From a virus, in the IMG/VR virus record IMGVR_UViG_3300010354_000790, positions 1-21,723 of that record: DNA of 21,723 nt; one strand, given 5' to 3'. This document shows positions 1,080 through 18,086 of the stretch, one piece after another. Made by a program: the position numbers and the translations under genes. The first letter of the stretch is position 1; each line of letters starts with the position of its first letter. The notes beneath the pieces were generated by a model. The model was given only the letters and a program-made list of their open reading frames with translations, searched no databases and was not told the origin of the DNA.

Positions 1080-1882
1080 CGCCAATAACCCTCATTTCTT
1101 TGTACAACCAAGTCAGTAACAAGACTTTTACCATATTCTTTACGTTTTCCCTTAAGATGATCAAGATATGCACCCCATGCACTATTAATTAACGGATGTC
1201 CTTCACCTTTTATAAGATTTTTAGACCAATCTAACTCGTTCATTGGTACTTTAGAACGTACGGCATCAAAAACAAAACTATCATGCCACTCCTCTAACGT
1301 AAAAATTCCATTTTCTGCGTCATCATAAAAATTTTGAAAGGTATTTAAGAATCTTTTAATTTGTTTATTACGCAGATTCATGGAATAAAGACCACATTCA
1401 CTAAATTTACCTTCTCGACCAAGAAAACAGAGATCTTTATCTGATGGAATAAGAGAATTTAATGTACCTTCAGTTATTTTAGTATGGCACACCATGTCTG
1501 CATCCATCCAAATTAGAATTTCTGCATCACAGTTTGCCGCACAATGAAAAATTGCATAAACTTTATGAGCAAAACGTATTGCGTCCCACTTAAATCCTTT
1601 ACCTGCATCACGACGTCGACTTCTTACCGGGTCGGCACTGACATCTCCATTAGCTTTAGGCACATCACGCCACTTTTTTTTAAATTCAACAAGCGGTTGA
1701 CTTGAAGCATGAAGATCTCTTACAATAATGTTAGGTGCAGATTCCAAAATTGTGCAATTTTCGGTATATACATACAAATTAACAGAAGGCGGCCACGTTT
1801 CTTTGTAGGTTTGTATAAATCTTTGAGCATATTGTTTATACCCTTCGGCATGAAATGTGGTTACAACCGCATATTTTGGCAT
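1076..1882 (-). CDS. GT-A-like glycosyltransferase (nucleotide-sugar transferase fold)
   Basis: A 268-residue protein that looks like a GT-A-fold glycosyltransferase. It opens with a beta strand (YAVVTTF) typical of the nucleotide-binding Rossmann half. A clear DxD-type metal site, IWMDADM, lies at about residues 124-130 after a hydrophobic strand. An acidic C-terminal half contains EEWHDSF, reminiscent of the second acidic patch in such enzymes. Two ATGs stand in tandem (1885 and 1882). A GGAG Shine-Dalgarno sits 2 nt before the first and 5 nt before the second, so I prefer 1882. It is the first gene of the minus-strand block and its stop overlaps the next methyltransferase start by 4 bp. 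Donor and acceptor cannot be told from sequence. Confidence 0.65.
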   Translation of the reverse strand: MPKYAVVTTFHAEGYKQYAQRFIQTYKETWPPSVNLYVYTENCTILESAPNIIVRDLHASSQPLVEFKKKWRDVPKANGDVSADPVRSRRRDAGKGFKWDAIRFAHKVYAIFHCAANCDAEILIWMDADMVCHTKITEGTLNSLIPSDKDLCFLGREGKFSECGLYSMNLRNKQIKRFLNTFQNFYDDAENGIFTLEEWHDSFVFDAVRSKVPMNELDWSKNLIKGEGHPLINSAWGAYLDHLKGKRKEYGKSLVTDLVVQRNEGYWR

Positions 1883-1920
1883 CATTACTCCATTAAATAC
1901 TTATATTACTTATCACTACT

Positions 1921-2778
1921 ATGAAATTCAGTATTTTTCCTCGACACGGTGCTCAAAACTCTAAACCTGTATTTGCAGCCTTTGAACAAGGCGCAAAAAA
2001 ATTAGGATATGAGGTAGTCGAACACGATATGAATGCAGATGTGTTTGTGATCTGGAGTGTACTATGGCATGGAAAAATGGAACAAAATAAAAAAATATGG
2101 GAAGAGGCAAAAAAATTAAAAAAAACTATTCTGGTACTGGAAGTCGGTTGTCTTCGAAGAGGAGAAACTTGGAAGTTAATGCGTAACGGTGTAAACAATA
2201 AAGGTTTTTTTGGTGTTGGTAGAGATCTTATACCTAATAGAGCAAAAAAAATAGGTATAAAATTAGCACCATGGACCATGAACGGATACAATATTTTAAT
2301 TTGCGGTCAGCATACTAAAAGTGAACAGTGGTCCAGTATGCCCTATCCAATAGAATGGCTGAAATCTACAGTAGATTCAATAAAAAAGCATACTGAGAAG
2401 CCTATTATATTTAGGCCTCACCCTAGAGATTGGCAGTGGGCAGCAAATTTTAAATACAAAGATGTCAAAATAAAAATCCCTAAACAGCTCGTCGGTACGT
2501 ATGACGATTTTGATTTTGACCAAGATCTAAAAAATGCGTGGGCTGTAGTTAACCCTAGTTCAAACACTGGTATACAGAGTATAATTAGCGGTGTACCAGC
2601 ATTTGTACATAAAGATAGTCTTGCTGCGTCTGTTGGGAATTTAGAATTTTCTTATCTTAACAATCCCCTAAGGCCTCGGCGAGAAGAATGGTTAGAATGG
2701 TTATCACATTCTGAATGGACTATAGATGAGCTGGCAGAAGGCTCACCAATTCATAGAATTTTACAGTCAAATATTTGA
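1921..2778 (+). CDS. Capsule-type (KpsC/GT-B-like) glycosyltransferase-like protein
   Basis: A 285-residue protein. Its C-terminal half resembles the nucleotide-sugar-binding domain of capsule/Kdo-type transferases: FRPHPRD at about 164-170 and NPSSNTGIQSIISGVPAF at 211-228, the place where GT-B enzymes carry an S/T-x-G-x-E/Q loop followed by G-x-P. The N-terminal half (VFVIWSVLWHG around 41-51, then LVLEVGCLRRG) looks like an alternating beta-alpha acceptor domain. No Shine-Dalgarno is visible before the ATG at 1921, and the 38 bp between it and the divergent gene contain only a weak late-promoter-like string (ATTAAATA). The gene is shorter than cellular capsule transferases. A carbohydrate role is likely; the exact reaction is not known. 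Confidence 0.55.
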   Translation: MKFSIFPRHGAQNSKPVFAAFEQGAKKLGYEVVEHDMNADVFVIWSVLWHGKMEQNKKIWEEAKKLKKTILVLEVGCLRRGETWKLMRNGVNNKGFFGVGRDLIPNRAKKIGIKLAPWTMNGYNILICGQHTKSEQWSSMPYPIEWLKSTVDSIKKHTEKPIIFRPHPRDWQWAANFKYKDVKIKIPKQLVGTYDDFDFDQDLKNAWAVVNPSSNTGIQSIISGVPAFVHKDSLAASVGNLEFSYLNNPLRPRREEWLEWLSHSEWTIDELAEGSPIHRILQSNI

Positions 2779-2803
2779 CATTTGTTATTACTTCTTATAT
2801 AAT
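2775..2803 (+). promoter_or_regulatory. Consensus sigma-70 promoter (TTGACA, 17 bp, TATAAT)
   Basis: A perfect -35 box TTGACA lies at 2775-2780 and a perfect -10 box TATAAT at 2798-2803, with the optimal 17-bp spacer. The -35 overlaps the stop codon of the preceding gene. The expected transcription start (about 7-8 nt after the -10) is 2810-2811, exactly at the ATG of the next gene, so the message would be leaderless. This fits early transcription by host RNA polymerase of the gene pair ending in UvsW. Confidence 0.75.
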
Positions 2804-2810
2804 TTGTATT

Positions 2811-3983
2811 ATGTTAACAACTGATCAACTATTGAATAATCTTATAGACAATGGGGCCATATCCCAATGCGACAAAATTTCGGATCAAGATAAAAAAATA
2901 TTCGGCAGTCTAAGACATCAGCTAAAAAAACAGGTTTTTTTGACTGAAAAACAAGGAAATTTATTAATTAAACTTTTACAAAATAATAAAAAACACTTAC
3001 ATTTGACCACCGAAGAAATTTATGTAATTAATACTCCGTTCTGGAGTCAAGAATTTAGACTATATTTTCCTATTAGAAAAATATATTTTTCCAACGAAAA
3101 AAGAGATTCGATAATCATTGAATTTTCCTATGATAAAGAATTGAAACAAAAACTTAGCAAAGAATTTGACCCAAGTGCTTCGAGAAGGGCGATATCTTCT
3201 ACTTCAAACAGAATAACAATTTATCCTACTGAATATAATATTCTTAAATTGATTCATACTATAAAAAATGATAATTTTGAAATCGAACATGACATTCTCG
3301 ACTTGTATCAAAAAATAGAATTAGCTATTAAAAATCACACAAATTATATAGATATATTAAATGAAAAAAATCAAAATCTATTTAATATAGTGACCAAGGA
3401 TCTAACCGATAAAGATAATACTGATTTAATACTTCTAGATAGACGAATCAAATTTCAATATGAATATAAATCAACAAACATACAAAATACCTTAGCATAC
3501 AAAATTGCATCTAGAAAAAACAGTACATTATATGTTAATTCTAAGATATATGAATTACAAAATATTTTTGAAGCATTTACTCAGTTGAAGAGATTTCCTA
3601 TCTTAATTATATTTGACGAACATGAGATATCAACATGTAATAGATTATTAGATGAACTTAATAATGTTTTAAAAATATCAAATATCGAAAATAAAACAGG
3701 AGTTTATTTTAGATTTAATAATAGTATTAACAAAATTTTTAATCAAAAAATTTCCGAATATAATTTTAATCAATATTTAGATTATGATACAAATATAGTG
3801 GGAATATCTTTGAAACAATTACCTAAGTTTTTATTAAAAACAGATTGGTATCCTAGATCAGTAATCAGTCTCACAGCGAATTTCAGACACAGTAAAGTTT
3901 GGTCATATTGTAATCAATCGGACTTGATAATTTTTTATTCAGAAGTAGAACCATTAACGAGGAATCATGATGTCGTCCTGTAA
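2811..3983 (+). CDS. Conserved phage protein with DEHE box, coupled to UvsW; function unknown
   Basis: A 390-residue, very AT-rich gene that I do not recognise by function. I take the ATG at 2811. A longer reading from a TTG at 2775 would start inside the promoter -35 box and add 12 hydrophobic residues. The N-terminal region (about 20-60) is helical with LTEKQGNLL, a pattern common at the start of phage replication ATPases. Near residue 263 there is a hydrophobic strand followed by an acidic box, PILIIFDEHE (DEHE at 269-272), shaped like a Walker B/DExH motif. No P-loop is visible. The C-terminus carries two further hydrophobic strands (VISLTANF and LIIFYSEVE). It overlaps the UvsW start by 17 bp, so it is probably co-translated with it and may be a UvsW partner or a degenerate RecA-fold protein. 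This is inference. Confidence 0.6.
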   Translation: MLTTDQLLNNLIDNGAISQCDKISDQDKKIFGSLRHQLKKQVFLTEKQGNLLIKLLQNNKKHLHLTTEEIYVINTPFWSQEFRLYFPIRKIYFSNEKRDSIIIEFSYDKELKQKLSKEFDPSASRRAISSTSNRITIYPTEYNILKLIHTIKNDNFEIEHDILDLYQKIELAIKNHTNYIDILNEKNQNLFNIVTKDLTDKDNTDLILLDRRIKFQYEYKSTNIQNTLAYKIASRKNSTLYVNSKIYELQNIFEAFTQLKRFPILIIFDEHEISTCNRLLDELNNVLKISNIENKTGVYFRFNNSINKIFNQKISEYNFNQYLDYDTNIVGISLKQLPKFLLKTDWYPRSVISLTANFRHSKVWSYCNQSDLIIFYSEVEPLTRNHDVVL

Positions 3984-5436
3984 ACTAATTATTAAAGACG
4001 AGGTTAATCTAAAATTAGAAGGATTACCAATCGAAGTTAGAAGAAAACTTGTAAACAAATTTAAATTTGTAGATCCTACTGCTCGCTATAGACCAGCTTA
4101 TCAATTAGGCAGATGGGATGGAACTGTGACCTTATTTGGTATGGGCGGTAACGGGTACTTACAGCAATTACCTACAATTTTATCTGTTTTAGAAGAATGT
4201 AATTATGAGATTAGTGAGATTACTGATCAAAGAACTCCTTTTAATTTAAATTTTAGTTTAGTAACGAACACATACTGGGCAGATCAAGGTAAAGTATGGG
4301 GATCGGGTCATAGATTCGAAGGCGAGCCCATAATGCTGAGAGACGATCAAGTAGAAGTCGTTAATAGATTTATTCAAAACCCACAGAGTTTACAAGAAGT
4401 AGCGACGGGCGCAGGTAAAACTATTATGACAGCAACCTTAGCCCAGCTATGTGAACCGTATGGCAGAACAATGATTATTGTTCCTAATAAGGATCTTGTT
4501 ACTCAAACAGAGGAAGATTTTGTAAACGTTGGATTGGATGTAGGTGTTTATTACGGGGATCGTAAAGATTTAGGAAAAACTCACACTATATGTACATGGC
4601 AAAGTTTAAACATTTTAGATAAAAAATCTAAAAACAATGAACATGAAATAGTTACACTTGCTGAATTTTTAGATGACGTCAAATGTGTAATTGTAGATGA
4701 AGTTCATATGGCTAAAGCAGCCGTTCTTAAAAATTTACTAACACAAAATTTTTGTAATGCTGCTATTCGATGGGGGTTAACTGGTACTATTCCAAAAGCA
4801 AATTATGAATCTGAAATAATATTTGCTAGCATAGGTCCAGTAGTAGGAGGAGTTAAGGCTCATGAATTACAAGAATTAGGTATATTAAGTGATTTACATG
4901 TTAACATATTACAATTATATGATAATCCTGAATTTAAATCATATGCAGAAGAACTAAAATATCTAGTAACTAATAAAGACAGAATAAAATATATTTCAAA
5001 TTTAATTCACACTATTTCAGAATCTGGCAACACACTTGTATTAGTGAATAGAATAGATACAGGTAATTTGTTGACAGAATTATTAGATGGATCAGTGTTT
5101 ATTTCAGGAGAAGTAAAAACAGAAGAGAGAAAAGAAGAATATGATGATGTTAAAAGAAGTGATAAAAAGATTATTGTGGCGACTTACGGTGTGGCCGCTG
5201 TTGGCATTAATATCCCAAGGATTTTTAATTTGGTTCTTCTTGAACCCGGAAAAAGCTTTGTTCGCGTTATACAATCAATTGGACGAGGTATTCGCAAAGC
5301 AGAAGACAAAGACTTCGTACAAATTTGGGACGTCACAAGCACCTGTAAGTACGCGAAAAAGCATCTTACAGAAAGGAAAAAGTTTTATAAAGAGGCGAAA
5401 TATCCGTTCACAGTTGAAAAGATCACATGGAATTGA
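3967..5436 (+). CDS. uvsW: UvsW-like superfamily 2 DNA/RNA helicase
   Basis: A 489-residue SF2 helicase matching T4 UvsW in length (about 500) and order. In T4 this enzyme unwinds R-loops and branched DNA and drives the switch from origin- to recombination-primed replication. The N-terminal domain (1-110) contains the basic YRPAYQLGRWDGTV patch typical of the family. Then come the P-loop ATGAGKT at 146-152, DEVH at 244-247 (motif II), LTGT at 271-274 (motif III), YGVAAVGINI at 407-416 (motif V) and QSIGRGIRK at 436-444 (motif VI with arginine finger). All catalytic motifs are intact. Start codons ATG ATG at 3967/3970 follow a GAGG Shine-Dalgarno at 3959-3962; the second ATG has the better 7-nt spacing. 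It overlaps the DEHE-box gene and is followed 3 bp later by a conserved hypothetical gene. Confidence 0.95.
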   Translation: MMSSCKLIIKDEVNLKLEGLPIEVRRKLVNKFKFVDPTARYRPAYQLGRWDGTVTLFGMGGNGYLQQLPTILSVLEECNYEISEITDQRTPFNLNFSLVTNTYWADQGKVWGSGHRFEGEPIMLRDDQVEVVNRFIQNPQSLQEVATGAGKTIMTATLAQLCEPYGRTMIIVPNKDLVTQTEEDFVNVGLDVGVYYGDRKDLGKTHTICTWQSLNILDKKSKNNEHEIVTLAEFLDDVKCVIVDEVHMAKAAVLKNLLTQNFCNAAIRWGLTGTIPKANYESEIIFASIGPVVGGVKAHELQELGILSDLHVNILQLYDNPEFKSYAEELKYLVTNKDRIKYISNLIHTISESGNTLVLVNRIDTGNLLTELLDGSVFISGEVKTEERKEEYDDVKRSDKKIIVATYGVAAVGINIPRIFNLVLLEPGKSFVRVIQSIGRGIRKAEDKDFVQIWDVTSTCKYAKKHLTERKKFYKEAKYPFTVEKITWN

Positions 5437-6303: not shown

Positions 6304-6990
6304 ATGCATTGCGAAATAATTACATTGTTAGGTCATAAACTATCTGAAAAGCTAGCAAGAGATTGCATAGATCAAGCAGAAAAATTTAATGTAAAAGTTA
6401 AAAAGTTTAACGCTATTTGGGGTAAAGATTATAAACAACATTTAGCACACTTAGGCATTAGTCTTGGCAGAGCAAAAGTTGGAAAAATGACTTTAGCCCA
6501 TTACGGTAACTTTTTAAGTCATTATTATCTATGGCTAAAATGTATAGAAACTAATGAACCTTTGATTATTTTAGAACATGATGGTTTTATGATTCGTCCA
6601 ATTCCTGATAATGTTCTTGATATCTTTCCTGATATTTTAAAATTAGATAGATTTAATCCTTATGAAAGAGATTATAATGATTTGATAGAAAAAAGCTTAC
6701 ATGAGCCTTTTACAGTTAAGCCTATAGAAAAACTTAAAAAGAAAAAATGCGGTTACTATACTTGGGGAAGTTATGCTTACATTATTAAACCTATCGGAGC
6801 AATGAAACTAGTCGAATATGTTAAATCTAATGGATTTTTACCAACTGATAACCAAATAGCATCAGGAGTAGTCGATATCTATACCTGTACAACTCCTATT
6901 GCTAGATTACATCCCTTATTCGCAGAAAATAAAGATAATATCACAGCATTATCTACTAGTAGAGAAATGGGAATGCCAAATGATGTATAA
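6304..6990 (+). CDS. GT25-like glycosyltransferase (LPS-type)
   Basis: A 228-residue protein resembling glycosyltransferase family 25 (LPS beta-galactosyltransferase/LgtB type). It starts with a strand-turn typical of the family, followed by KVKKFNAIWG (about 31-40), the position of the family's substrate-binding 'R-F-x-A-x-G' region. The diagnostic GNFLSHYYLW is at 68-77 (family: G-C-x-x-S-H) and the acidic LEHDG at 90-94 (family: L-E-D-D, metal site). TWGSYAYIIKP at 153-163 matches the family's 'G-x-x-A-Y' segment, and TDNQIASG at 181-188 corresponds to the C-terminal acid. It starts 3 bp after the cupin. A second, shorter relative is at 12338-12886. The acceptor is unknown. Confidence 0.72.
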   Translation: MHCEIITLLGHKLSEKLARDCIDQAEKFNVKVKKFNAIWGKDYKQHLAHLGISLGRAKVGKMTLAHYGNFLSHYYLWLKCIETNEPLIILEHDGFMIRPIPDNVLDIFPDILKLDRFNPYERDYNDLIEKSLHEPFTVKPIEKLKKKKCGYYTWGSYAYIIKPIGAMKLVEYVKSNGFLPTDNQIASGVVDIYTCTTPIARLHPLFAENKDNITALSTSREMGMPNDV

Positions 6991-10416: not shown

Positions 10417-10892
10417 TGTCTGAAAAAATTGAATTGAAGGAAAAATTAGCAGCAGTTGATTTAAATGTTAAATCCCTTTGGGATGAAATTGACGACGATC
10501 AACGTAAACACTTAAAAAGTGAATTTTTTATTCTTAATAGATATATAAGCAATATAAAGTCCGGAACCAGAGAAGAAAAAGAACATTTTGTGTTAACGGT
10601 TAATGAGTATTTTAACAAACACTGGAATACTCTGCAAAAACATCCTAAACTACTTTGGAATTTATTGTGTATGTGTAGTTATGAAAGTAGGAAACTATTT
10701 TATCACGAATGGATTGGATTTAAAAATAAAAAAGTAAAAAATAAAACTATTAAATTTCTTTTAGAGATATATCCTAATCGAAAACAAGACGAATTAGAAT
10801 TAATGAGTTTTATTTTAACCGACAAAGAATGTGAAGAGCTAGCTAGAAATCACGGTTATAGTGATCAACAAATTAAAACACTTTTTAAATGA
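10416..10892 (+). CDS. Possible phage sliding-clamp loader A subunit (gp62-like)
   Basis: A 158-residue helical protein. It shows the general pattern of the small clamp-loader subunit of marine T4-like phages rather than T4 gp62 itself: EFFILNRYISN (36-46), FVLTVNEYFNKHW (58-70), then a lysine/arginine-rich segment around IGFKNKKVKNK (100-110) and a C-terminal helix ending HGYSDQQIKTLFK. The family partner, the gp44 ATPase, is not in this window, which is unusual since gp44 and gp62 are normally adjacent. This subunit may therefore be a paralogue or an unrelated helical protein. The ATG shares one base with the upstream stop (TAATG), and its own stop overlaps the next gene by 4 bp. A profile search against the Phage_clamp_A family would decide. 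Confidence 0.4.
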   Translation: MSEKIELKEKLAAVDLNVKSLWDEIDDDQRKHLKSEFFILNRYISNIKSGTREEKEHFVLTVNEYFNKHWNTLQKHPKLLWNLLCMCSYESRKLFYHEWIGFKNKKVKNKTIKFLLEIYPNRKQDELELMSFILTDKECEELARNHGYSDQQIKTLFK

Positions 10893-11581
10893 TGCTTTTG
10901 AAAACAGACGAATATATTTGTTCGCATTGTCAAACAAAGTTTACAAAAGAAAAAACTTTGATAGTGCATATGTGCGAACAAAAACGCCGTCATCTTGCCA
11001 AAGAAGAAAAACATGTTATAATGGGGTTGTATGCATTTAACAAGTTTTATCAATTATCACAAAAAACCGTAGAACAAAAAACTTATGATGAATTTGCCAA
11101 AAGCTCTTACTATAATGCCTTCGTAAAATTTGGAAGTTTTATTTCAAACATTAACCCGTTATACCCTGAAAAATTTTTAGAATATGTTATTCGTAGTGGA
11201 GTAAAATTAGATCATTGGTGCAAAGAAGAATTATATGAAAAATATATAGTACATCTTTTACAACATGAATCAGTGGAAACTGCACTAGAAAGATCAATCC
11301 AAACTATGTCGTTGTGGGCGGAAAAAAATAATAGTGTTTGGAATCATTATTTTGCGTTCGTGAGCACTAATAGAGCTATGTTTGATATTAAAGATGGTAA
11401 AATTAGCCCTTGGCTTTTATTGAATTGCGATAGCGGTAAAACATTACTAAATCAATTTGATGATGTACAACTATCGGCAATAAGTAATATTATTGATCCT
11501 GTATTTTGGGTTAAGAAGTTTAAGAATCAAAAAGAAGATTTAATTCTAGTAAAATCTGTGGTCAAGGAGTCCACTTTATGA
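10889..11581 (+). CDS. Zinc-finger phage protein, unknown function
   Basis: A 230-residue protein with one N-terminal zinc-finger-like module: C11-x2-C14, then H27 and C29, embedded in YICSHCQTKF and LIVHMCEQKRR, followed by a basic patch fit for nucleic acid. The remainder is a largely helical domain with a notable GKISPWLLLNCDSGKTLL (about 172-189) near the C-terminus. The latter looks superficially like a P-loop but lacks the G-x4-GK[ST] spacing. It resembles a conserved family of marine T4-like phages, for which I know no assay. Its ATG overlaps the preceding stop (ATGATG), and the next gene again overlaps by 4 bp. DNA or RNA binding in replication or transcription is inferred from the finger and the neighbours. 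Confidence 0.65.
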   Translation: MMLLKTDEYICSHCQTKFTKEKTLIVHMCEQKRRHLAKEEKHVIMGLYAFNKFYQLSQKTVEQKTYDEFAKSSYYNAFVKFGSFISNINPLYPEKFLEYVIRSGVKLDHWCKEELYEKYIVHLLQHESVETALERSIQTMSLWAEKNNSVWNHYFAFVSTNRAMFDIKDGKISPWLLLNCDSGKTLLNQFDDVQLSAISNIIDPVFWVKKFKNQKEDLILVKSVVKESTL

Positions 11582-11760
11582 GCGAAAACATTATGAGTGA
11601 TCTAGCAGAATTAAGTATGCAAGTAATTGTAAGTGAGCGAGATAATTCTGTTTATGTTAAATTAGAAGGATTTGACGATTTAGACGATGCCGAAAGTTAT
11701 GCAGAATTTTTATCAAAAAATCTTCCTCTGTTACTTTTTGAATCTGAAATAATACACTAA
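11578..11760 (+). CDS. Small acidic phage protein, unknown function
   Basis: A 60-residue, strongly acidic protein with a simple beta-beta-alpha look: a strand SMQVIVSERDNSVYVKLEGF (13-32), then DDLDDAESYAEFLSKNLPLL. No cysteine cluster or membrane segment is visible. It is coupled at both ends: 4-bp overlap with the zinc-finger gene and 1-bp overlap (TAATG) with the DnaE-like gene. Together with the next gene it could form one functional unit, for example as an accessory or inhibitor of the mini-polymerase-like protein. That is inference from position only. Confidence 0.65.
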   Translation: MSENIMSDLAELSMQVIVSERDNSVYVKLEGFDDLDDAESYAEFLSKNLPLLLFESEIIH

Positions 11761-12341
11761 TGCCTGATATTGATATTGATTTAGCTGATAGAACATTAGT
11801 TCTTGATAAAATAAAATATATTTCTGCTTCTATAAAAGAAGATAGAAACAATTTTAAAAAACATAATACAGGCATTTACTGTACGCAGATTCCACACAAC
11901 CCTATTGACAATCTTGCAAATATCGCATACAAAGAAGCAGAAGATCGAGGCTACTTTAAGATAGATTTACTAAATGTAAATTTATATAAAGATGTTAAAG
12001 ACGAAGCGCATCTCATAGAACTTATGGAGACAGAACCATTATGGGACCTATTAGAGCAAGACGATTTCACAAACCTACTGTTCCATATAAACGGCCATGG
12101 AAATATCTTAAGAACAATGAAACCGAAGAGTCTGGAACAACTTGCAGCAATACTAGCTATGATCAGGCCAGCCAAGAGATATCTGATAGGTCAAGATTGG
12201 AATGTAGTGATGGCGGAGGTTTGGAAAAAACCAGAAAATGATGAATATTATTTTAAAAAAGCTCATGCTATAGCCTATGCACAAGCAATTATAGTACAAA
12301 TGAATTTAATTTGTTCTCAAATTAGTATAGAATTTTCATGA
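11760..12341 (+). CDS. Miniature DNA polymerase III alpha (DnaE-like) catalytic-core relative
   Basis: A 193-residue protein with, in correct order, the hallmark motifs of the bacterial C-family polymerase DnaE/PolC compressed into one short chain. PDIDIDLADR at 2-11 matches the palm motif PDxDxD that bears two catalytic aspartates. KKHNTGIY at 33-40 matches the DnaE K-x-H-A-G-G segment. GYFKIDLLN at 64-72 matches K-x-D-F-L-G with the third catalytic aspartate (here D69). LLFHINGHGNILRTMKPKSL then IRPAKR (135-140) match the finger segment ending A-L-x-RPG. YYFKKAHAIAYA at 163-174 matches N-K-S-H-A-x-AYA. PHP domain, thumb, clamp-binding region and OB domain are absent; cellular DnaE has about 1,160 residues. 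It starts on the last base of the preceding stop and overlaps the next gene by 4 bp. Whether it polymerises DNA, binds nucleotides or only regulates is unknown. Confidence 0.8.
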   Translation: MPDIDIDLADRTLVLDKIKYISASIKEDRNNFKKHNTGIYCTQIPHNPIDNLANIAYKEAEDRGYFKIDLLNVNLYKDVKDEAHLIELMETEPLWDLLEQDDFTNLLFHINGHGNILRTMKPKSLEQLAAILAMIRPAKRYLIGQDWNVVMAEVWKKPENDEYYFKKAHAIAYAQAIIVQMNLICSQISIEFS

Positions 12342-12886
12342 AATGTTTTGCGATAACATTGCCTGATAATTCTTCAGCTCTTAGACAGTTCGAAAGATGT
12401 AGAAATATTGCTGCTAAGTTTGATCTAGTTGTAGAAAAATTTGATGCAATAGTTGGACAAACTCTTACTATCAAAGACTTTGAAAAAGAGGGTCTTAACT
12501 TACTGCCGCATACTAGAATATATAAAAAACCAAAGTTCTTAGGCACATTTATGAGCCATTATATCTTGTGGAAATTGTGCGCATCTGATAATGAAAATTA
12601 TGTAATTTTAGAGTCTGATGCAGTACTAACTGACTCGATTCCTAATCTAGACTTGTCCTCGCATGTGATCAAACTACATTTAGACAAGGGCACCGAAACA
12701 AGTAACGTAACAGGTAGATGGAGTAAAGGAAGCTATGCGTATGCTTTAAGTCCTGCACTGGCACAGCAATTAATAGATGGAATAAAAGCTAAAAATGTGA
12801 AACCTTCTGATGTTTGTATAGGGGATGCTATAGTACCTTGGAGACATTATCATATTGATCTAGTTCAACATGTAGCTACAGTTTAA
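12338..12886 (+). CDS. Short GT25-like glycosyltransferase
   Basis: A 182-residue, shorter relative of the GT25-like protein at 6304-6990. It has VVEKFDAIVG (31-40), GTFMSHYILW (69-78; family G-C-x-x-S-H), LESDAVL (91-97; family acidic metal site), KGSYAYALSP (130-139) and a late acidic PSDVCIGDA (156-164). The two proteins align motif by motif, but this one lacks about 45 residues between the acidic site and the GSYAY segment, so it may be a minimal catalytic core or be inactive. It closes the run of overlapping genes (ATGA with the DnaE-like gene) and ends on a TTAA shared with the stop of the opposite-strand gene, so the two genes converge on the same bases. Confidence 0.65.
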   Translation: MKCFAITLPDNSSALRQFERCRNIAAKFDLVVEKFDAIVGQTLTIKDFEKEGLNLLPHTRIYKKPKFLGTFMSHYILWKLCASDNENYVILESDAVLTDSIPNLDLSSHVIKLHLDKGTETSNVTGRWSKGSYAYALSPALAQQLIDGIKAKNVKPSDVCIGDAIVPWRHYHIDLVQHVATV

Positions 12887-13260
12887 CGCTTAGGATTTCT
12901 TACTAACTGCACACTTTTACGTTTAACACGTTTTATAGATAGATTCAGTAAATTTACTACAGGGCCTAAAATTATTCTAACATCTTTGCTGTTAAAAGTT
13001 TTTATAGCATATCTGTAGGGTTCTATTTCTTTTCTTAGGAAGATATTAATTGGTACTTGCCTATTCGATTCCCACCACCAAATTTCACCTATTTCTAGAA
13101 GTCCTGCTTTGTGCTCTTGCGTTTTTATAACGCCCAAGTCAAAAAAACTAGTGACAAACTGATCTTGGTTGATAATGATTCCGACGTATTCATTTTCTCC
13201 ATAATGAATAACCGAAATGAAGGGTAATTGTTCTTGTATGTTTTCTCTTAATTTTGCCAT
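12883..13260 (-). CDS. Conserved T4-like phage protein, unknown function (single minus-strand gene)
   Basis: A 125-residue basic protein starting MAKLRENIQEQL at 13260. A longer reading from 13287 would add nine residues overlapping the divergent gene and is less likely. Strands FISVIHYG, YVGIIIN and GEIWWWES precede a C-terminal basic tail rich in Lys/Arg (NLSIKRVKRKSVQLVRNPKR, 106-125). It looks like a small beta protein with a nucleic-acid- or membrane-facing tail, and resembles a family recurring in marine T4-like phages. No function is known to me. It is the only minus-strand gene in the middle of the window. A TATAAATA octamer on its strand at 13307-13300 could drive it as a late gene. 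No Shine-Dalgarno is visible. Confidence 0.68.
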   Translation of the reverse strand: MAKLRENIQEQLPFISVIHYGENEYVGIIINQDQFVTSFFDLGVIKTQEHKAGLLEIGEIWWWESNRQVPINIFLRKEIEPYRYAIKTFNSKDVRIILGPVVNLLNLSIKRVKRKSVQLVRNPKR

Positions 13261-13265
13261 AAATA
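13258..13265 (+). promoter_or_regulatory. T4-type late promoter candidate, CATAAATA, for the structural gene
   Basis: The string CATAAATACTG differs from the T4 late consensus TATAAATA by one base. It lies 16 bp before the ATG of a virion-type gene, where a late promoter is expected. It overlaps the start codon of the minus-strand gene. Confidence 0.45.
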
Positions 13266-13281
13266 CTGTGGGACTAACCAA

Positions 13282-14103
13282 ATGCAAAAAATTTCAACTT
13301 ATTTATATCGAAATAGAGTCTTTGTCATAGCCGATATGGCTTGCTTTCCTGTGGAGTGGCGACTAGTGTACCAGAGAACAATTAAAATCTATAAAGGCAT
13401 GGAAAACATCATAGAATTTGATGTTAGGAATGCTGATCAAAAACGTGTGCCTATCAATGGTTTAACAATGAAATGTCTAATTATGGATAGAAACAATGAG
13501 GAAATTCTGACAGCTGAAGTTGACACTAATGCAGTCAACTGTAGTACAGGTATAGGAATTTTGATGTTAGATGCAAATGATCTAAATCATATAGACCCCC
13601 AATTCTTAAAATACACACTGTATATAGAAAATGTAGATGGCAGTAAAACACCTGTATACGGCGACACACAATTTGGACTAGGAGGCACTATCGAATTCAT
13701 CGGAGGAGTATTACCCCAAGCACCGGCTCCTCAGATAATCGATGCATTCAATTATGTTAATAATGACAATTTGTTAAATCCTACTAATGTTACTTATTTT
13801 AGCGAAGCAGTCGAAGTTCACCCGAAAAATAGAATCGGCGAGTCTCATACTGTAAGCTTAGAATTTAAAGTAACTAATCTTGATGCTGAAATTAAAGTTC
13901 AAATGACCACAGATGTTGTTGTCAGCACTGCTACAACATGGGTAGATTTAGAAACGTTTATAGTAACACCGTCGACTGATACGATTTCTAAACATTATCA
14001 AGAAGTGGATGATTTTAGTAATAATATTGGTTGGTTAAGAATCGAATATACTCCAACTAGCACTAACACCGGAAAAATTGACAAAATATTAGTAAGATCA
14101 TAA
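13282..14103 (+). CDS. Virion structural protein candidate (BppU-like N-terminus)
   Basis: A 273-residue beta-rich protein. The N-terminal part (about 28-65) reads as an immunoglobulin-like or baseplate-upper-protein domain: QRTIKIYKG then NIIEFDVRNADQKRVPING, the pattern seen in BppU-type tail/baseplate proteins and in structural proteins of cyanophage-like T4 relatives. The C-terminal half (from about 165) is Thr/Val/Asn-rich with SLEFKVTNLDAEIKVQ and GWLRIEYTP, looking like a jelly-roll or fibre domain. No signal peptide or membrane segment is visible. It is preceded by a late-promoter-like CATAAATA and a weak GGGA, consistent with late expression. A structural assignment is likely; whether baseplate, neck or fibre is not resolved. 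Confidence 0.6.
   Translation: MQKISTYLYRNRVFVIADMACFPVEWRLVYQRTIKIYKGMENIIEFDVRNADQKRVPINGLTMKCLIMDRNNEEILTAEVDTNAVNCSTGIGILMLDANDLNHIDPQFLKYTLYIENVDGSKTPVYGDTQFGLGGTIEFIGGVLPQAPAPQIIDAFNYVNNDNLLNPTNVTYFSEAVEVHPKNRIGESHTVSLEFKVTNLDAEIKVQMTTDVVVSTATTWVDLETFIVTPSTDTISKHYQEVDDFSNNIGWLRIEYTPTSTNTGKIDKILVRS
13300..13307 (-). promoter_or_regulatory. T4-type late promoter candidate, TATAAATA, minus strand
   Basis: An exact TATAAATA on the minus strand lies 39 bp upstream of the ATG at 13260. The initiation point predicted from T4 geometry (about 7 nt downstream, near 13293) gives a leader of about 33 nt. The octamer is inside the coding start of the opposite gene, so a chance occurrence cannot be excluded. 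Confidence 0.4.
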
Positions 14104-14106
14104 AAT
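14078..14106 (+). promoter_or_regulatory. Sigma-70-like promoter (TTGACA, 17 bp, TAAAAT) for the primase operon
   Basis: A perfect -35 TTGACA at 14078-14083, a 17-bp spacer and a -10 TAAAAT at 14101-14106 (one mismatch to TATAAT). The -35 is inside the last codons of the structural gene and the -10 overlaps its stop. The predicted transcription start is about 14113, at the primase ATG, so the message would have no leader, with the same geometry as the promoter at 2775-2803. Confidence 0.65.
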
Positions 14107-14112
14107 GTATCT

Positions 14113-15111
14113 ATGAGTCTTATTGTAGATACTGTCAGTCTCCATTTACCTTCGAAACGAAAAAATACACCGAGCGGTTGGATTAGTTTCAATGCGATTT
14201 GCTGTCACCATAATGGAACATCGGCAGACACAAGACAACGCGGCGGCATAATGATAAACGAAGGAGTGAGCTATCATTGTTTTAACTGTGGGTTTAAGTC
14301 TAGTTGGCAACCAGGCAGAATTATATCTGCCAAATTTAGAAAATTTCTTCGCTGGTTGAATGTCGATGACGATCTTATTAATAAATGCATTTTGGAAGCT
14401 TTAAGATTAAAGGAAGATATTACATATACAGGTAAATCTAATTTACTACCTTCATTTATTAATAAATCGTTACCTTTAGGATCTAAGTCTCTTAATGAAT
14501 GGTCCGTTGATAATAACGAAGTTCCTCGAGGATTACTCGATGTAATCAATTATATTACTTCGAGAGGATTAAATCCTTTGGAATATCCTTATTATTATTC
14601 GAATGAATTAGGATTTAGAAATAGAATTATAATTCCATATTTTTATCAAAAGCAAATTGTAGGTTGGACGGCAAGAGCGATTAACGATAGTAAACCAAAA
14701 TATCTAAGTGAACAACAACCTGGCTATGTGTTTAATTTAGATAATCAAACACATGACCGTAAATATGTTATAGTTTGTGAAGGGCCGTTTGACGCTATTT
14801 CGATAGATGGCGTCGCTGTTTTAGGTGGCGAATTGAGCGACTCTCAATGTATCCTGATCAAACAATTGCAAAAGGAAGTAATTGTTTTACCGGATCGAGA
14901 TAAAGCAGGAAGAAAAATAGTTAACCAAGCCATAGACAATGGATGGTCGGTAAGTTTTCCTGTTTGGGAACCTCATATAAAAGATGCCAACGACGCTATA
15001 AAGATATATGGAAAACTATACACATTGTATAGCATTTTACAAAATAAACAAGATACTAAACTTAAAATAGAACTTTATTCTAAAAAATGGTTTGAAAAGG
15101 AAAAACAATGA
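14113..15111 (+). CDS. 61: DNA primase, T4 gp61-like
   Basis: A 332-residue primase close in length to T4 gp61 (342). It makes RNA primers for lagging-strand synthesis within the gp41 helicase complex. An N-terminal zinc-binding domain is seen from C30-C31-H32-H33 and C56-F-N-C59, inside YHCFNCGF. A helical linker follows. The TOPRIM catalytic centre has E222 in VIVCEGPFDAI and D260-R-D262 in VLPDRDKAGRK, the metal-binding Glu and DxD pair, all intact. A GFRNRIIIPYF segment (about 166-176) is the usual DnaG/gp61-type strand before TOPRIM. Its stop overlaps the next microprotein by 4 bp, and the helicase follows two genes later. In T4 the two genes are neighbours; here two genes are inserted between them. 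Confidence 0.92.
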   Translation: MSLIVDTVSLHLPSKRKNTPSGWISFNAICCHHNGTSADTRQRGGIMINEGVSYHCFNCGFKSSWQPGRIISAKFRKFLRWLNVDDDLINKCILEALRLKEDITYTGKSNLLPSFINKSLPLGSKSLNEWSVDNNEVPRGLLDVINYITSRGLNPLEYPYYYSNELGFRNRIIIPYFYQKQIVGWTARAINDSKPKYLSEQQPGYVFNLDNQTHDRKYVIVCEGPFDAISIDGVAVLGGELSDSQCILIKQLQKEVIVLPDRDKAGRKIVNQAIDNGWSVSFPVWEPHIKDANDAIKIYGKLYTLYSILQNKQDTKLKIELYSKKWFEKEKQ

Positions 15112-15221
15112 GATTTATTATAGACATACTCTGCTGGCCTTGGAATTATTATCAAGAACGCAGAGCTTTTAAAAAACGAATCGAAGAACTTAAAAAACGA
15201 GATCCATATATATACAAATGA
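15108..15221 (+). CDS. 37-aa microprotein between primase and carbamoyltransferase
   Basis: A 37-residue open reading frame linked to both neighbours by ATGA overlaps (start in the primase stop, stop over the next ATG). The sequence begins with a hydrophobic MRFIIDILCWPWNYY and continues as a basic amphipathic helix (ERRAFKKRIEELKKRDPYIYK). It could lie along the membrane or bind a partner protein. A similar small protein ending in RIEELKK-D-P-x-IYK is, as far as I recall, repeated in marine T4-like phages near this replication block, which supports it being real. Its function is unknown. Confidence 0.65.
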   Translation: MRFIIDILCWPWNYYQERRAFKKRIEELKKRDPYIYK

Positions 15222-16678
15222 TTACTTGGGGAATATCTGCAAACAGTCATGATGCAGCATTGGCTGTTTTTAACAATAACGATTTATTATTTGCTAGTCA
15301 TAGCGAACGATTTAGTCATAAAAAAAATGATCCTCATCTGTGCGATGAGCTAGTTAATTACGTTGCAAACAATTATGGCGAACCTGATAAAGTATTCTGG
15401 TATGAAACTCCATGGTTAAAAACTACTAGACAGCTATATGCCGGACAAGGATTTCAAGATAATAATATTAAAAAATATCTAGATAAGTTCCATATAGATG
15501 CAAAAATAAAATTTACAAAACATCACGAAAGTCATGCAGCAGCAGGCTTTTACACTAGTAAATTTGAAAATGCTACTGTGCTAGTCATTGACTCAATTGG
15601 CGAATGGGAATGTTTAACTGTATGGAAAGCGTGTTCTACATATGGACTGAAAAAAGTTTATAGTCAAAAATATCCTCATAGCATCGGATTGTGGTATAGT
15701 GCAATGACTCAGCGTATTGGGCTTACACCCAACGAAGATGAATACATACTTATGGGTATGGCTGCATATGGAAATCCAAACAAATATTTTGACAGAATCA
15801 ATAACGATTTCTTTTACACAAGTCTATCTGGCTGGCCGCATCTAAGAAAAAATTTACACAAAGGATGTTTAGACTGGTTTCCTAATTTACCCGAAGATGA
15901 ATATTTTCATATTGCCGCAGCTACTCAAGAAATTTACGAATATCAACTTAAAAAAATTCTTTATCAGGTAAGACTACTTGCTCCTAATGAAAATTTAGTA
16001 TTCATGGGCGGTTGTGCATTGAATTGTTCTGCTAATCGTATCCTATTAGATTTTTATAAAGATGTTTGGATAATGCCTAATCCTGGTGATGCAGGCAGTG
16101 CTATTGGAGCAGTGTTGGCACACAACAAGCAGCATATAGACTGGAAAGGTCCTTTTTTAGGATATAGTATTACTCCTTCTGCATCTAATGAAGATATTGT
16201 AAAACATTTAATGAAACATAAAATTTGTGGTGTAGCAAGAGGCCCAGCAGAATTTGGTCCAAGAGCATTAGGGAACAGAAGCTTGATAGCAGATCCAAGA
16301 GATCCGTCGACTAAAGACTTAGTGAATAAAATTAAACGTAGACAACAGTTCAGACCTTTCGCTCCTATGATTTTAAAAGAACATGCAGACAAATATTTTG
16401 ATATGCCTGTAAAATCTAGTCCTTATATGCAATTTACTGCTAAATGTAAATATCCTGACAAGTATCCTGCAATTATTCATGAAGATGGTACTAGTCGAGT
16501 GCAAACTGTAGGCAATGAAGCTCCATTAGCCAAAGCACTATTACAGACTTGGTATGAAAAAACAGGATGTCCTATGTTATTGAATACTAGTCTTAATATA
16601 AAAGGTCAACCAATGGTGAATGATATCGCAGATTCAAAAGAATTTGAAGCAACATACAACACGAAAGTTTTTAACTAA
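15218..16678 (+). CDS. NodU/CmcH-type carbamoyltransferase
   Basis: A 486-residue O-carbamoyltransferase, a family that uses carbamoyl phosphate and ATP to carbamoylate a hydroxyl group. The N-terminal Kae1-like domain has GISANSHDAALA (5-16) and the KHHESHAAAGF metal-site helix (101-111, with H102, H103 and H106), then VLVIDSIGEW (121-130). GGCALNCSANR (about 264-274) is the conserved nucleotide-site loop. The C-terminal catalytic segment shows ARGPAEFGPRALGNRS and ends with NTSLNIKGQPM. It is somewhat shorter than many bacterial members (550-600 aa), but all core motifs are present. It lies between primase/microprotein and the helicase. Carbamoyl transfer to hydroxymethyl-cytosine has been described for phage DNA, so base modification is a candidate role; sugar carbamoylation is the alternative. 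Confidence 0.9.
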   Translation: MITWGISANSHDAALAVFNNNDLLFASHSERFSHKKNDPHLCDELVNYVANNYGEPDKVFWYETPWLKTTRQLYAGQGFQDNNIKKYLDKFHIDAKIKFTKHHESHAAAGFYTSKFENATVLVIDSIGEWECLTVWKACSTYGLKKVYSQKYPHSIGLWYSAMTQRIGLTPNEDEYILMGMAAYGNPNKYFDRINNDFFYTSLSGWPHLRKNLHKGCLDWFPNLPEDEYFHIAAATQEIYEYQLKKILYQVRLLAPNENLVFMGGCALNCSANRILLDFYKDVWIMPNPGDAGSAIGAVLAHNKQHIDWKGPFLGYSITPSASNEDIVKHLMKHKICGVARGPAEFGPRALGNRSLIADPRDPSTKDLVNKIKRRQQFRPFAPMILKEHADKYFDMPVKSSPYMQFTAKCKYPDKYPAIIHEDGTSRVQTVGNEAPLAKALLQTWYEKTGCPMLLNTSLNIKGQPMVNDIADSKEFEATYNTKVFN

Positions 16679-16679
16679 T

Positions 16680-18086
16680 ATGACAAGACAAAATGCCGAT
16701 TATGGTTTACAAATACAAAAATTGTATTTAGAAATGATGCTGAGTGATGCTGAAACATTTGTGAGATGTCAAAGTATTTTTGATTATACTCTATTTGAGC
16801 GTCAGCTACAGCCAGCTGCAAAATTTATTAGCGAATATGTAACTCAACATGCTACATTGCCTACTTTTGAAATAGTTAATGCAGCAACTAAAAGTGATCT
16901 AACAGTTCATAACAATCTTAGAGAAGAACATTATGATTGGTTAATGCAGGACTTCGAAACGTTTATTAGACACAAAGGATTAGAGAGAGCTATCCTAGAA
17001 AGCGCAGATCTTCTTGAAAAAGGAGAATATGGTCCGGTTGAAGAATTAGTTAAAAAAGCAGTACAAGTCGGACTTACGAAAGATATGGGCACTGATTATT
17101 TTGCAGATCCTCGAGCACGTCTGATGCGTATAAAAGATAAAAATGGTCAAATTAGTACAGGATGGCAAACTGTAGACAAGAGATTATTCGGCGGTATGAA
17201 TAGAGGAGAACTTAATATATTTGCTGGTGGTAGTGGTGCAGGTAAAAGTTTATTCTTGGCAAATCTTGGAGTGAACTGGGCACTACAAGGATTGAATGTT
17301 GTTTACCTGACATTAGAACTAAGTGAAGAACTAGTAAGTATGCGAATCGATAGTATGATTACTGAAATTCCTACTAGAGATATTTTCAAACAAATTGACG
17401 ATGTTGAAATGAAGGTTAAAGTTATCGGAAAAAAATCTGGTACATATCAAGTAAAATATATGCCAAGTGGCAAAACTGCTAACGATATTCGTGCTTACTT
17501 AAAAGAATATGAAATAAAAATGAATCGCAAAGTAGATGTGTTATTGGTAGATTACTTAGATTTGTTGATGCCGCAAAGTAAAAAAATCAGTGCTGAAAAC
17601 TTGTTTGTGAAAGACAAGTATGTATCCGAAGAGTTACGTAATTTAGCTATGGAAAAAAATTGTATCTTTGTTACAGCAGCACAATTAAATCGAGGAGCTG
17701 TTGAAGAAGTCGAATACGATCATAGTCATATCTCAGGCGGACTGAGTAAAATACAAACAGCAGACAATGTGTTCGGTATCTTTACTAGTCGTGCTATGAG
17801 AGAGCGTGGTAAGTATCAAATACAATTAATGAAGACTCGTAGTTCAAGCGGTGTAGGTATGAAGATTGATCTAGATTTTGATATAGATACTTTGCGTATT
17901 ACGGATCCCGGCGAAGAAGGCCAAACGGATGAAACTACATCGCGTAGTTCAAGTATTCTAAATAATCTTCAACGCAATAGTACTATAAATGTTGATCCAT
18001 CTGAAGGAGCAAGTGTAAAAACTACAGCTCAAGTTGAAAGTAGTAAACTAAGACAATTGTTAAGCAATTTACCAACTGAAATATAA
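16680..18086 (+). CDS. 41: Replicative DNA helicase, DnaB family (T4 gp41-like)
   Basis: A 468-residue RecA-type hexameric helicase, close to T4 gp41 (475), that unwinds DNA at the fork and partners the gp61 primase. I chose the ATG at 16680, one base after the carbamoyltransferase stop. An ORF could be opened at 16620, but it would overlap that gene by 59 bp. The N-terminal helical primase-interaction domain (1-135) is followed by a GWQTVDKRLFGG linker (161-172), Walker A GGSGAGKS (183-190), a VVYLTLELSEE strand/E motif (207-217), Walker B VLLVDYLDLL (287-296) and a C-terminal QLNRG/SGG segment for DNA contact. All ATPase motifs are intact. The last residues and the stop codon lie inside a 22-bp palindrome. 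Confidence 0.93.
   Translation: MTRQNADYGLQIQKLYLEMMLSDAETFVRCQSIFDYTLFERQLQPAAKFISEYVTQHATLPTFEIVNAATKSDLTVHNNLREEHYDWLMQDFETFIRHKGLERAILESADLLEKGEYGPVEELVKKAVQVGLTKDMGTDYFADPRARLMRIKDKNGQISTGWQTVDKRLFGGMNRGELNIFAGGSGAGKSLFLANLGVNWALQGLNVVYLTLELSEELVSMRIDSMITEIPTRDIFKQIDDVEMKVKVIGKKSGTYQVKYMPSGKTANDIRAYLKEYEIKMNRKVDVLLVDYLDLLMPQSKKISAENLFVKDKYVSEELRNLAMEKNCIFVTAAQLNRGAVEEVEYDHSHISGGLSKIQTADNVFGIFTSRAMRERGKYQIQLMKTRSSSGVGMKIDLDFDIDTLRITDPGEEGQTDETTSRSSSILNNLQRNSTINVDPSEGASVKTTAQVESSKLRQLLSNLPTEI

Follow-up and report, generated by a model that had tools for sequence, protein, structure and literature searches.

The stretch of DNA analysed here (the window) is a 21.7-kb fragment of the genome of an uncultured phage. 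Positions 11760 to 12341 of its plus strand hold an open reading frame of 193 codons, with an ATG start and a TGA stop, which belongs to phrog_11778 and which we assign as the 193-residue C-terminal unit of a split minimal DNA polymerase III alpha (hereafter the C-unit). When its translation was compared with DnaE of E. coli, five motifs of C-family polymerases were evident, beginning at residues 2, 33, 66, 135 and 166 and occurring in DnaE order; the E. coli equivalents lie at 400, 510, 553, 639 and 758 of a chain of 1160 residues. An earlier, sequence-only reading of this DNA had described the same five motifs, in DnaE/PolC order, in a protein about one sixth of the usual length, and both statements were correct.

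The first motif, PDIDID (residues 2-7; 11763..11780, plus strand), corresponds to D401/D403/D405 of E. coli DnaE and contains two catalytic aspartates, D3 and D5, as well as D7, each of which was invariant in 60/60 sequences. It is followed by KKHNTG (residues 33-38; 11856..11873, plus strand), the equivalent of KxHAGG, which aligned to E. coli K510-H511 and in which H35 and G38 were invariant among C-unit homologues, and by FKIDLLN (residues 66-72; 11955..11975, plus strand), the equivalent of KxDFLG, which aligned to K553/D555 and holds the third catalytic aspartate, D69; K67 and D69 were both invariant. A finger stretch identified with Pfam PF17657 and hhalign (12087..12182, plus strand) ends in IRPAKR (residues 135-140), the RPG equivalent, with invariant R136, P137 and K139. 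The last motif, KKAHAIAYA (residues 166-174; 12255..12281, plus strand), is the equivalent of KSHxxAY, contains the invariant H169 and Y173, and is placed in the same order as residues 774-788 of M. tuberculosis DnaE1.

Gene neighbourhood of the C-unit

Directly upstream, a 60-residue ORF (11578..11760, plus strand) with homologues in close relatives only ends in a stop codon that overlaps the C-unit start (TAATG), an arrangement that suggests translational coupling; the TGA of the C-unit gene overlaps the start of the next gene. The small ORF is preceded by a gene for a 230-residue protein with a CxxC...HxxxC N-terminus (phrog_11058; 10889..11581, plus strand), found at 15 of the 18 loci scanned; lying beside the C-unit, this protein is a candidate DNA-binding partner. 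A convergent gene for a 134-residue protein (12883..13287, minus strand), found at 16 of the 18 loci, usually runs up to or into the 3' end of the C-unit gene; in the window, a gene for a GT25-type glycosyltransferase (12338-12886) is inserted between the two. A 228-residue ORF at 6304-6990 looks similar to the GT25 gene.

Genes of the phage replication machinery were found on both sides. An SF2 helicase with Pfam ResIII and Helicase_C domains (3967..5436, plus strand) is UvsW-like by position and domains, and the UvsW-like gene 10 of phage 121Q occupies the same place; in 121Q a gene for a DnaQ-like exonuclease lies beside UvsW. Downstream of the C-unit are a DnaG-type primase resembling T4 gp61, with a Toprim domain (14113..15111, plus strand; phrog_47, E=2e-42), and a DnaB-like replicative helicase resembling T4 gp41 (16620..18086, plus strand; phrog_19, E=1.5e-67). 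Between primase and replicative helicase lies the gene for a NodU/CmcH-type carbamoyltransferase (15218-16678), which perhaps takes part in DNA or sugar modification. The order in the window (UvsW-like helicase, phrog_11758, phrog_11058, small ORF, C-unit, convergent gene, a 273-residue gene, primase and DnaB-like helicase) matches that in 121Q, Atu_ph07 and Paride, and constitutes a T4-type replication neighbourhood.

The C-unit is homologous to DNA polymerase III alpha

Among the PHROG profiles, phrog_11778 ('DNA polymerase') matched the C-unit over its whole length (E=3.2e-64), and phrog_405, a family of full-length phage DnaE proteins, matched residues 51-139 (E=4.6e-5). Alignment of the C-unit family profile with four bacterial DnaEs by hhalign gave E=1.2e-7, and set K34/H35 on K510/H511, and D69 on D555, of the E. 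coli protein. When a profile of 53 homologues was compared with the PDB, the top match was M. tuberculosis DnaE1 (E=7e-4), in which four segments aligned in order: 413-425 (MPDIDIDFDDRR), 483-526, 566-664 (KMDFLG to RPG) and 774-788 (FNKSHAAGY). PF17657, the finger domain, was found in 44 of the 53 family members. The lone window sequence scored weakly, at E=0.014 for the Pfam finger domain, which is below the cut-off, and with a chance match in the PDB; the C-family assignment therefore rests on the family profiles.

An AF2 model of the C-unit, computed from a 41-row alignment of the window sequence with IMG/VR rows, reached a pLDDT of 84, and when it was searched against the PDB with Foldseek the first 17 matches were all C-family polymerases. 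The scores were modest (best E only 2e-3, and low TM-scores of 0.33-0.46), as is expected for half a palm modelled alone. Matches in NCBIfam favoured the DnaE type over PolC; the split form can be aligned with DnaE and PolC over roughly 200 columns, at about 20% identity, too little for a reliable tree. The window C-unit is 66-76% identical to its IMG/VR relatives, 36-50% identical to most C-units of cultured phages and less than 50% identical to any of them. At the level of sequence, these comparisons establish that the C-unit is a true Pol III alpha homologue. The relationship had been proposed from motifs, with the predicted fold named as a point on which the proposal could fail, and the modelled fold matched C-family polymerases.

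Reduction of the C-unit relative to DnaE

The C-unit chain begins at PDxDxD and ends after KxHxxAY, and is devoid of the PHP, beta-binding, OB and tau-binding parts, as these domains are commonly named in DnaE. The interval between D7 and the KH pair is only 27 residues long, compared with about 105 in E. coli DnaE, indicating that the thumb is gone, and the stretch from RPG to KSH measures about 31 residues, compared with 119 in E. coli. With the thumb and much of the fingers missing, grip on DNA and processivity would be poor. GRGS, a further motif of the catalytic site in the C-family palm, was detected neither in the C-unit ORF nor anywhere in the 21.7-kb window.

A second gene encodes the complementary half

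When six large genomes with a C-unit homologue were searched with the PF07733 profile, each yielded one other short ORF, which matched profile positions 11-98 and was nowhere near the C-unit gene. The product (hereafter the N-unit), of about 110-185 residues, matched PHROG 11127, 'DNA polymerase', with E=9e-43, and aligned by hhalign to DnaE with E=8.7e-12, over residues 321-393 of the E. coli protein; it carries GxGRGS, invariant in 91/91 sequences. Its AF2 model reached a pLDDT of 88, and DnaE and PolC were the top Foldseek matches. A stand-alone enzyme made of the C-unit was rejected, since GRGS is missing from the C-unit and was found in this second gene. The characterization of the C-unit as a stripped palm/finger unit consequently holds for its palm and finger homology and finds no support as regards a complete, self-sufficient unit, since the N-terminal half of the palm, with GRGS, is a separate gene in every large relative checked.

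The N-unit ends at E. coli DnaE position 393 and the C-unit starts at 400, so that the halves abut at one point of DnaE. This end falls at the FERFL position (E. coli 388-392): N-units stop within a few residues of FL(R/K), that of a 270-kb contig ending in ...GVGRGSSVASYVLYLIGVHKIDSLKYNLDWREFLR followed by the stop codon, and C-units start at most about 16 residues before PDxDxD. On phrog_405 the N-unit maps to 358-429 and the C-unit to 579-679, which are consecutive parts. The alignments establish both the split point and the complementarity of the two units, which together appear to make up a C-family catalytic centre that has neither PHP nor thumb, lacks most of the fingers and has no beta-binding region. 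A split intein was considered and rejected: no intein sequence was present after the N-unit or before the C-unit, and the pieces therefore cannot be joined by intein splicing. The two genes are 11-224 kb apart across 11 phage records, and the N-unit gene is found within a few genes of the clamp loader (gp44) in 121Q, Atu_ph07, Paride and SCTP-2.

The two units co-occur and are under purifying selection

The evidence for co-occurrence comes from larger relatives of the window, which is itself a fragment. An N-unit was present in 12 of the 12 large relatives checked for both units, namely 11 phage records (141-490 kb) and a 383-kb contig; contigs of 383, 365, 270 and 181 kb carry both. The C-unit was found in 90 phage records, plus one chance-level match to a full-length DnaE, and the N-unit in 86 phage records at E<=1e-8, with weaker matches in other phages of the split type, such as Slicko01 and CMSTMSU. 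Seventy-two of the 79 C-unit records among the matches listed also appear among the N-unit matches listed; the other seven include one duplicate entry (a phage under another accession) and one 109-kb fragment. Some contigs of 109-213 kb contain only the N-unit and some of 95-145 kb only the C-unit, as follows from the distance between the genes and the incompleteness of the contigs. Sequence distances of the N- and C-units were correlated (Mantel r=0.83, p=0.0001; 14 genomes), indicating that the units are inherited together; such a correlation owes as much to vertical descent as to interaction, and is no proof of contact.

The C-unit is common in uncultured phages, with at least about 600 IMG/VR stretches. 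In Alishewanella phage Slicko01 (OQ508956.1), which at 141 kb lies below jumbo size, the N-unit (2617-3129) and C-unit (13968-14579) are 11 kb apart, both genes are annotated as hypothetical, and a B-family polymerase is present. A cellular source was sought, and no split form was found among the matches listed from 84,980 bacterial and archaeal genomes; these matches comprised four confirmed relatives, 26-31% identical, of which at least three are full-length DnaE.

Across 60 C-units, a set that reaches members 30-32% identical to that of the window, D3, D5, D7, H35, K67, D69, R136, P137, K139, H169 and Y173 were invariant in 60/60. The median dN/dS was 0.12, the highest value being 0.45 (235 pairs, dS<1.5). 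Purifying selection is evident from these values, and the claim that the three aspartates are kept by selection was borne out: loss of an aspartate in homologues, singled out beforehand as damaging to it, was seen in none of the 60. The invariance of residues in both units and the low dN/dS argue for an active two-chain nucleotidyltransferase centre.

These constraints bear on two other explanations. In the first, the C-unit alone would act as a decoy or inhibitor of host Pol III, a function proposed in the sequence-only reading and consistent with its resemblance to part of host DnaE; however, its catalytic residues are fully constrained, the obvious decoy surfaces, namely the thumb and the regions that contact host factors (PHP for epsilon, and the beta- and tau-binding regions), are gone, and a dedicated partner, the N-unit, co-occurs with it. 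We consider a decoy highly improbable. In the second, the pair would be an inactive remnant of a complete DnaE that now serves as a structural part of the replisome, which would accord with the large losses relative to DnaE and with an apparently intact gp43 alongside, but the invariance of the catalytic residues of both metal-binding motifs (60/60) and of GxGRGS (91/91) is unexpected in a dead enzyme, and this explanation, too, appears very unlikely.

A putative auxiliary enzyme beside gp43

Matches to B-family polymerase were present in 15 of the 15 larger records tested, and the coexistence with gp43 anticipated for a T4-like phage is hence seen in relatives of the window; within the 21.7-kb window, itself a genome fragment, there was no gp43 match. 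In the genomes inspected, gp43 keeps YGDTDS and/or KxxxNSxYG, and with these motifs intact a dead gp43, with the split pair as main replicase, is not favoured.

We reasoned, with good though not complete confidence, that the window ORF encodes one of the two pieces, the C-terminal one, of a minimal C-family (Pol III alpha/DnaE-type) nucleotidyltransferase of T4-like phages, most of them jumbo phages. The products of the N- and C-unit genes probably assemble into an enzyme of very small size that works beside the main phage polymerase. The C-unit would contribute three aspartates for metal binding, the KxH element, the RPG portion of the fingers and the helix that carries KxHxxAY, and the N-unit, encoded tens to hundreds of kilobases away near gp44, would bring the GRGS triphosphate-binding helix; the two chains would fold together, with the active site at the subunit interface. 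From the sequence comparisons we infer a physical heterodimer, nucleotidyl transfer and an auxiliary-polymerase role beside gp43, most likely in primer extension, gap filling or repair. The role is suggested by gene position: the C-unit gene is flanked by the UvsW-like helicase on one side and by the primase and replicative helicase on the other, and the N-unit gene lies by the clamp loader.

As to the activity itself, we tentatively propose that the pair may form a working C-family polymerase despite the lost thumb. At about 360 residues it would possibly be the smallest of its class; its active site would form only on contact between two subunits that are regulated separately, and it would have its own step beside the B-family replicase, in primer hand-off, gap filling or lesion bypass. 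The pair might instead be active without being a usual DNA polymerase, performing template-independent tailing, primer making, or transfer onto nucleotides, RNA or protein. With no thumb and a shortened RPG-to-KSH stretch, the pair nevertheless keeps all metal- and triphosphate-binding residues invariant, and many small enzymes of the Pol beta fold are non-processive, all of which would suit such a transferase. Against it, the RPG finger helix and the KxHxxAY helix are retained, helices which in C-family enzymes contact the template and the incoming dNTP, and both genes lie among replisome genes; we judge a non-polymerase transferase rather unlikely.

Comparison with known systems

C-family polymerases are known as very large proteins with thumb, PHP and clamp-binding parts. 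The split form shares with bacterial DnaE (E. coli, and M. tuberculosis DnaE1) the motif set and its order, the palm and part of the fingers; in contrast to bacterial DnaE, it is without PHP, thumb, middle fingers, beta-clamp-binding, OB and tau-binding parts, and is made of two chains rather than one. The phage families phrog_405 (1190 positions) and phrog_11165 (782 positions) are far longer and hold the C-family core in one chain; the N-unit falls close to the beginning of phrog_11165, which appears to be without the PHP part. For PHROG 11778 (C-unit) and PHROG 11127 (N-unit), the name 'DNA polymerase' hides the status of half an enzyme. In cyanobacteria with split-intein DnaE, two distant genes likewise encode DnaE; the distant two-gene layout is shared, whereas the phage units carry no intein sequence. 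Rossellomorea phage phiT1 (PV767480.1) has another, probably independent, DnaE split, with a 573-residue PHP-palm part and a 469-residue finger-to-C-terminal part encoded on the minus strand (215-1624 and 1776-3497) by neighbouring genes with a small ORF between them, the cut falling after KFDLLGL.

A conserved form reduced to the palm and some of the fingers, and divided between two chains, puts to the test which parts catalysis needs, and provides a compact system for biochemical and structural study. It also raises the questions of why strong selection maintains a bacterial-type core in a phage that has a B-family replicase of its own, and of whether the reduced form was derived from cellular DnaE or is old; given its abundance and its presence in easily grown coliphages such as 121Q, these are testable now.

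Iyer et al. 2021 (PMC7824862; sections 3.4.1 and 3.5, Fig. 3b) described in the group 2.2 jumbo phages a minimal Pol III alpha that is specific to phages and divided between two distant genes, one for an NTP-binding N-terminal protein and the other for a Mg2+- and template-binding C-terminal protein, and suggested cooperation with the B-family enzyme in the synthesis of one strand or in repair; their account answers the surprise, voiced in the sequence-only reading, at a C-family core in a T4-like phage. Earlier genome papers reported for CBB only a truncated Pol III alpha of 172 residues and for Atu_ph07 only a gene (gp316) for Pol III alpha; by size or position, both are the N-unit. A search of openly accessible papers found no biochemical work on the split enzyme. 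The paper on Ralstonia phage RsoM2USA (PMC8504454) names a phage DNA polymerase, an ORF resembling Pol I and a Pol III epsilon, in passages that name no Pol III alpha; the phage is absent among the C-unit matches listed, possibly through secondary loss.

The present analysis adds the exact split point, the residue invariance in both units, their near-complete co-occurrence, the loss of the thumb, a conserved gene cassette that includes the CxxC protein and the convergent gene, the abundance in uncultured phages and the occurrence in a 141-kb phage. The window is a further member of the split Pol III alpha described by Iyer et al. 2021: it has the C-terminal unit with metal and template elements, its larger relatives carry a distant N-unit and gp43 alongside, and its C-unit is homologous to and syntenic with those of 121Q, RaK2, GAP32, Atu_ph07 and PA5oct, whereas the GT25 gene inserted behind the C-unit distinguishes it from the group 2.2 phages.
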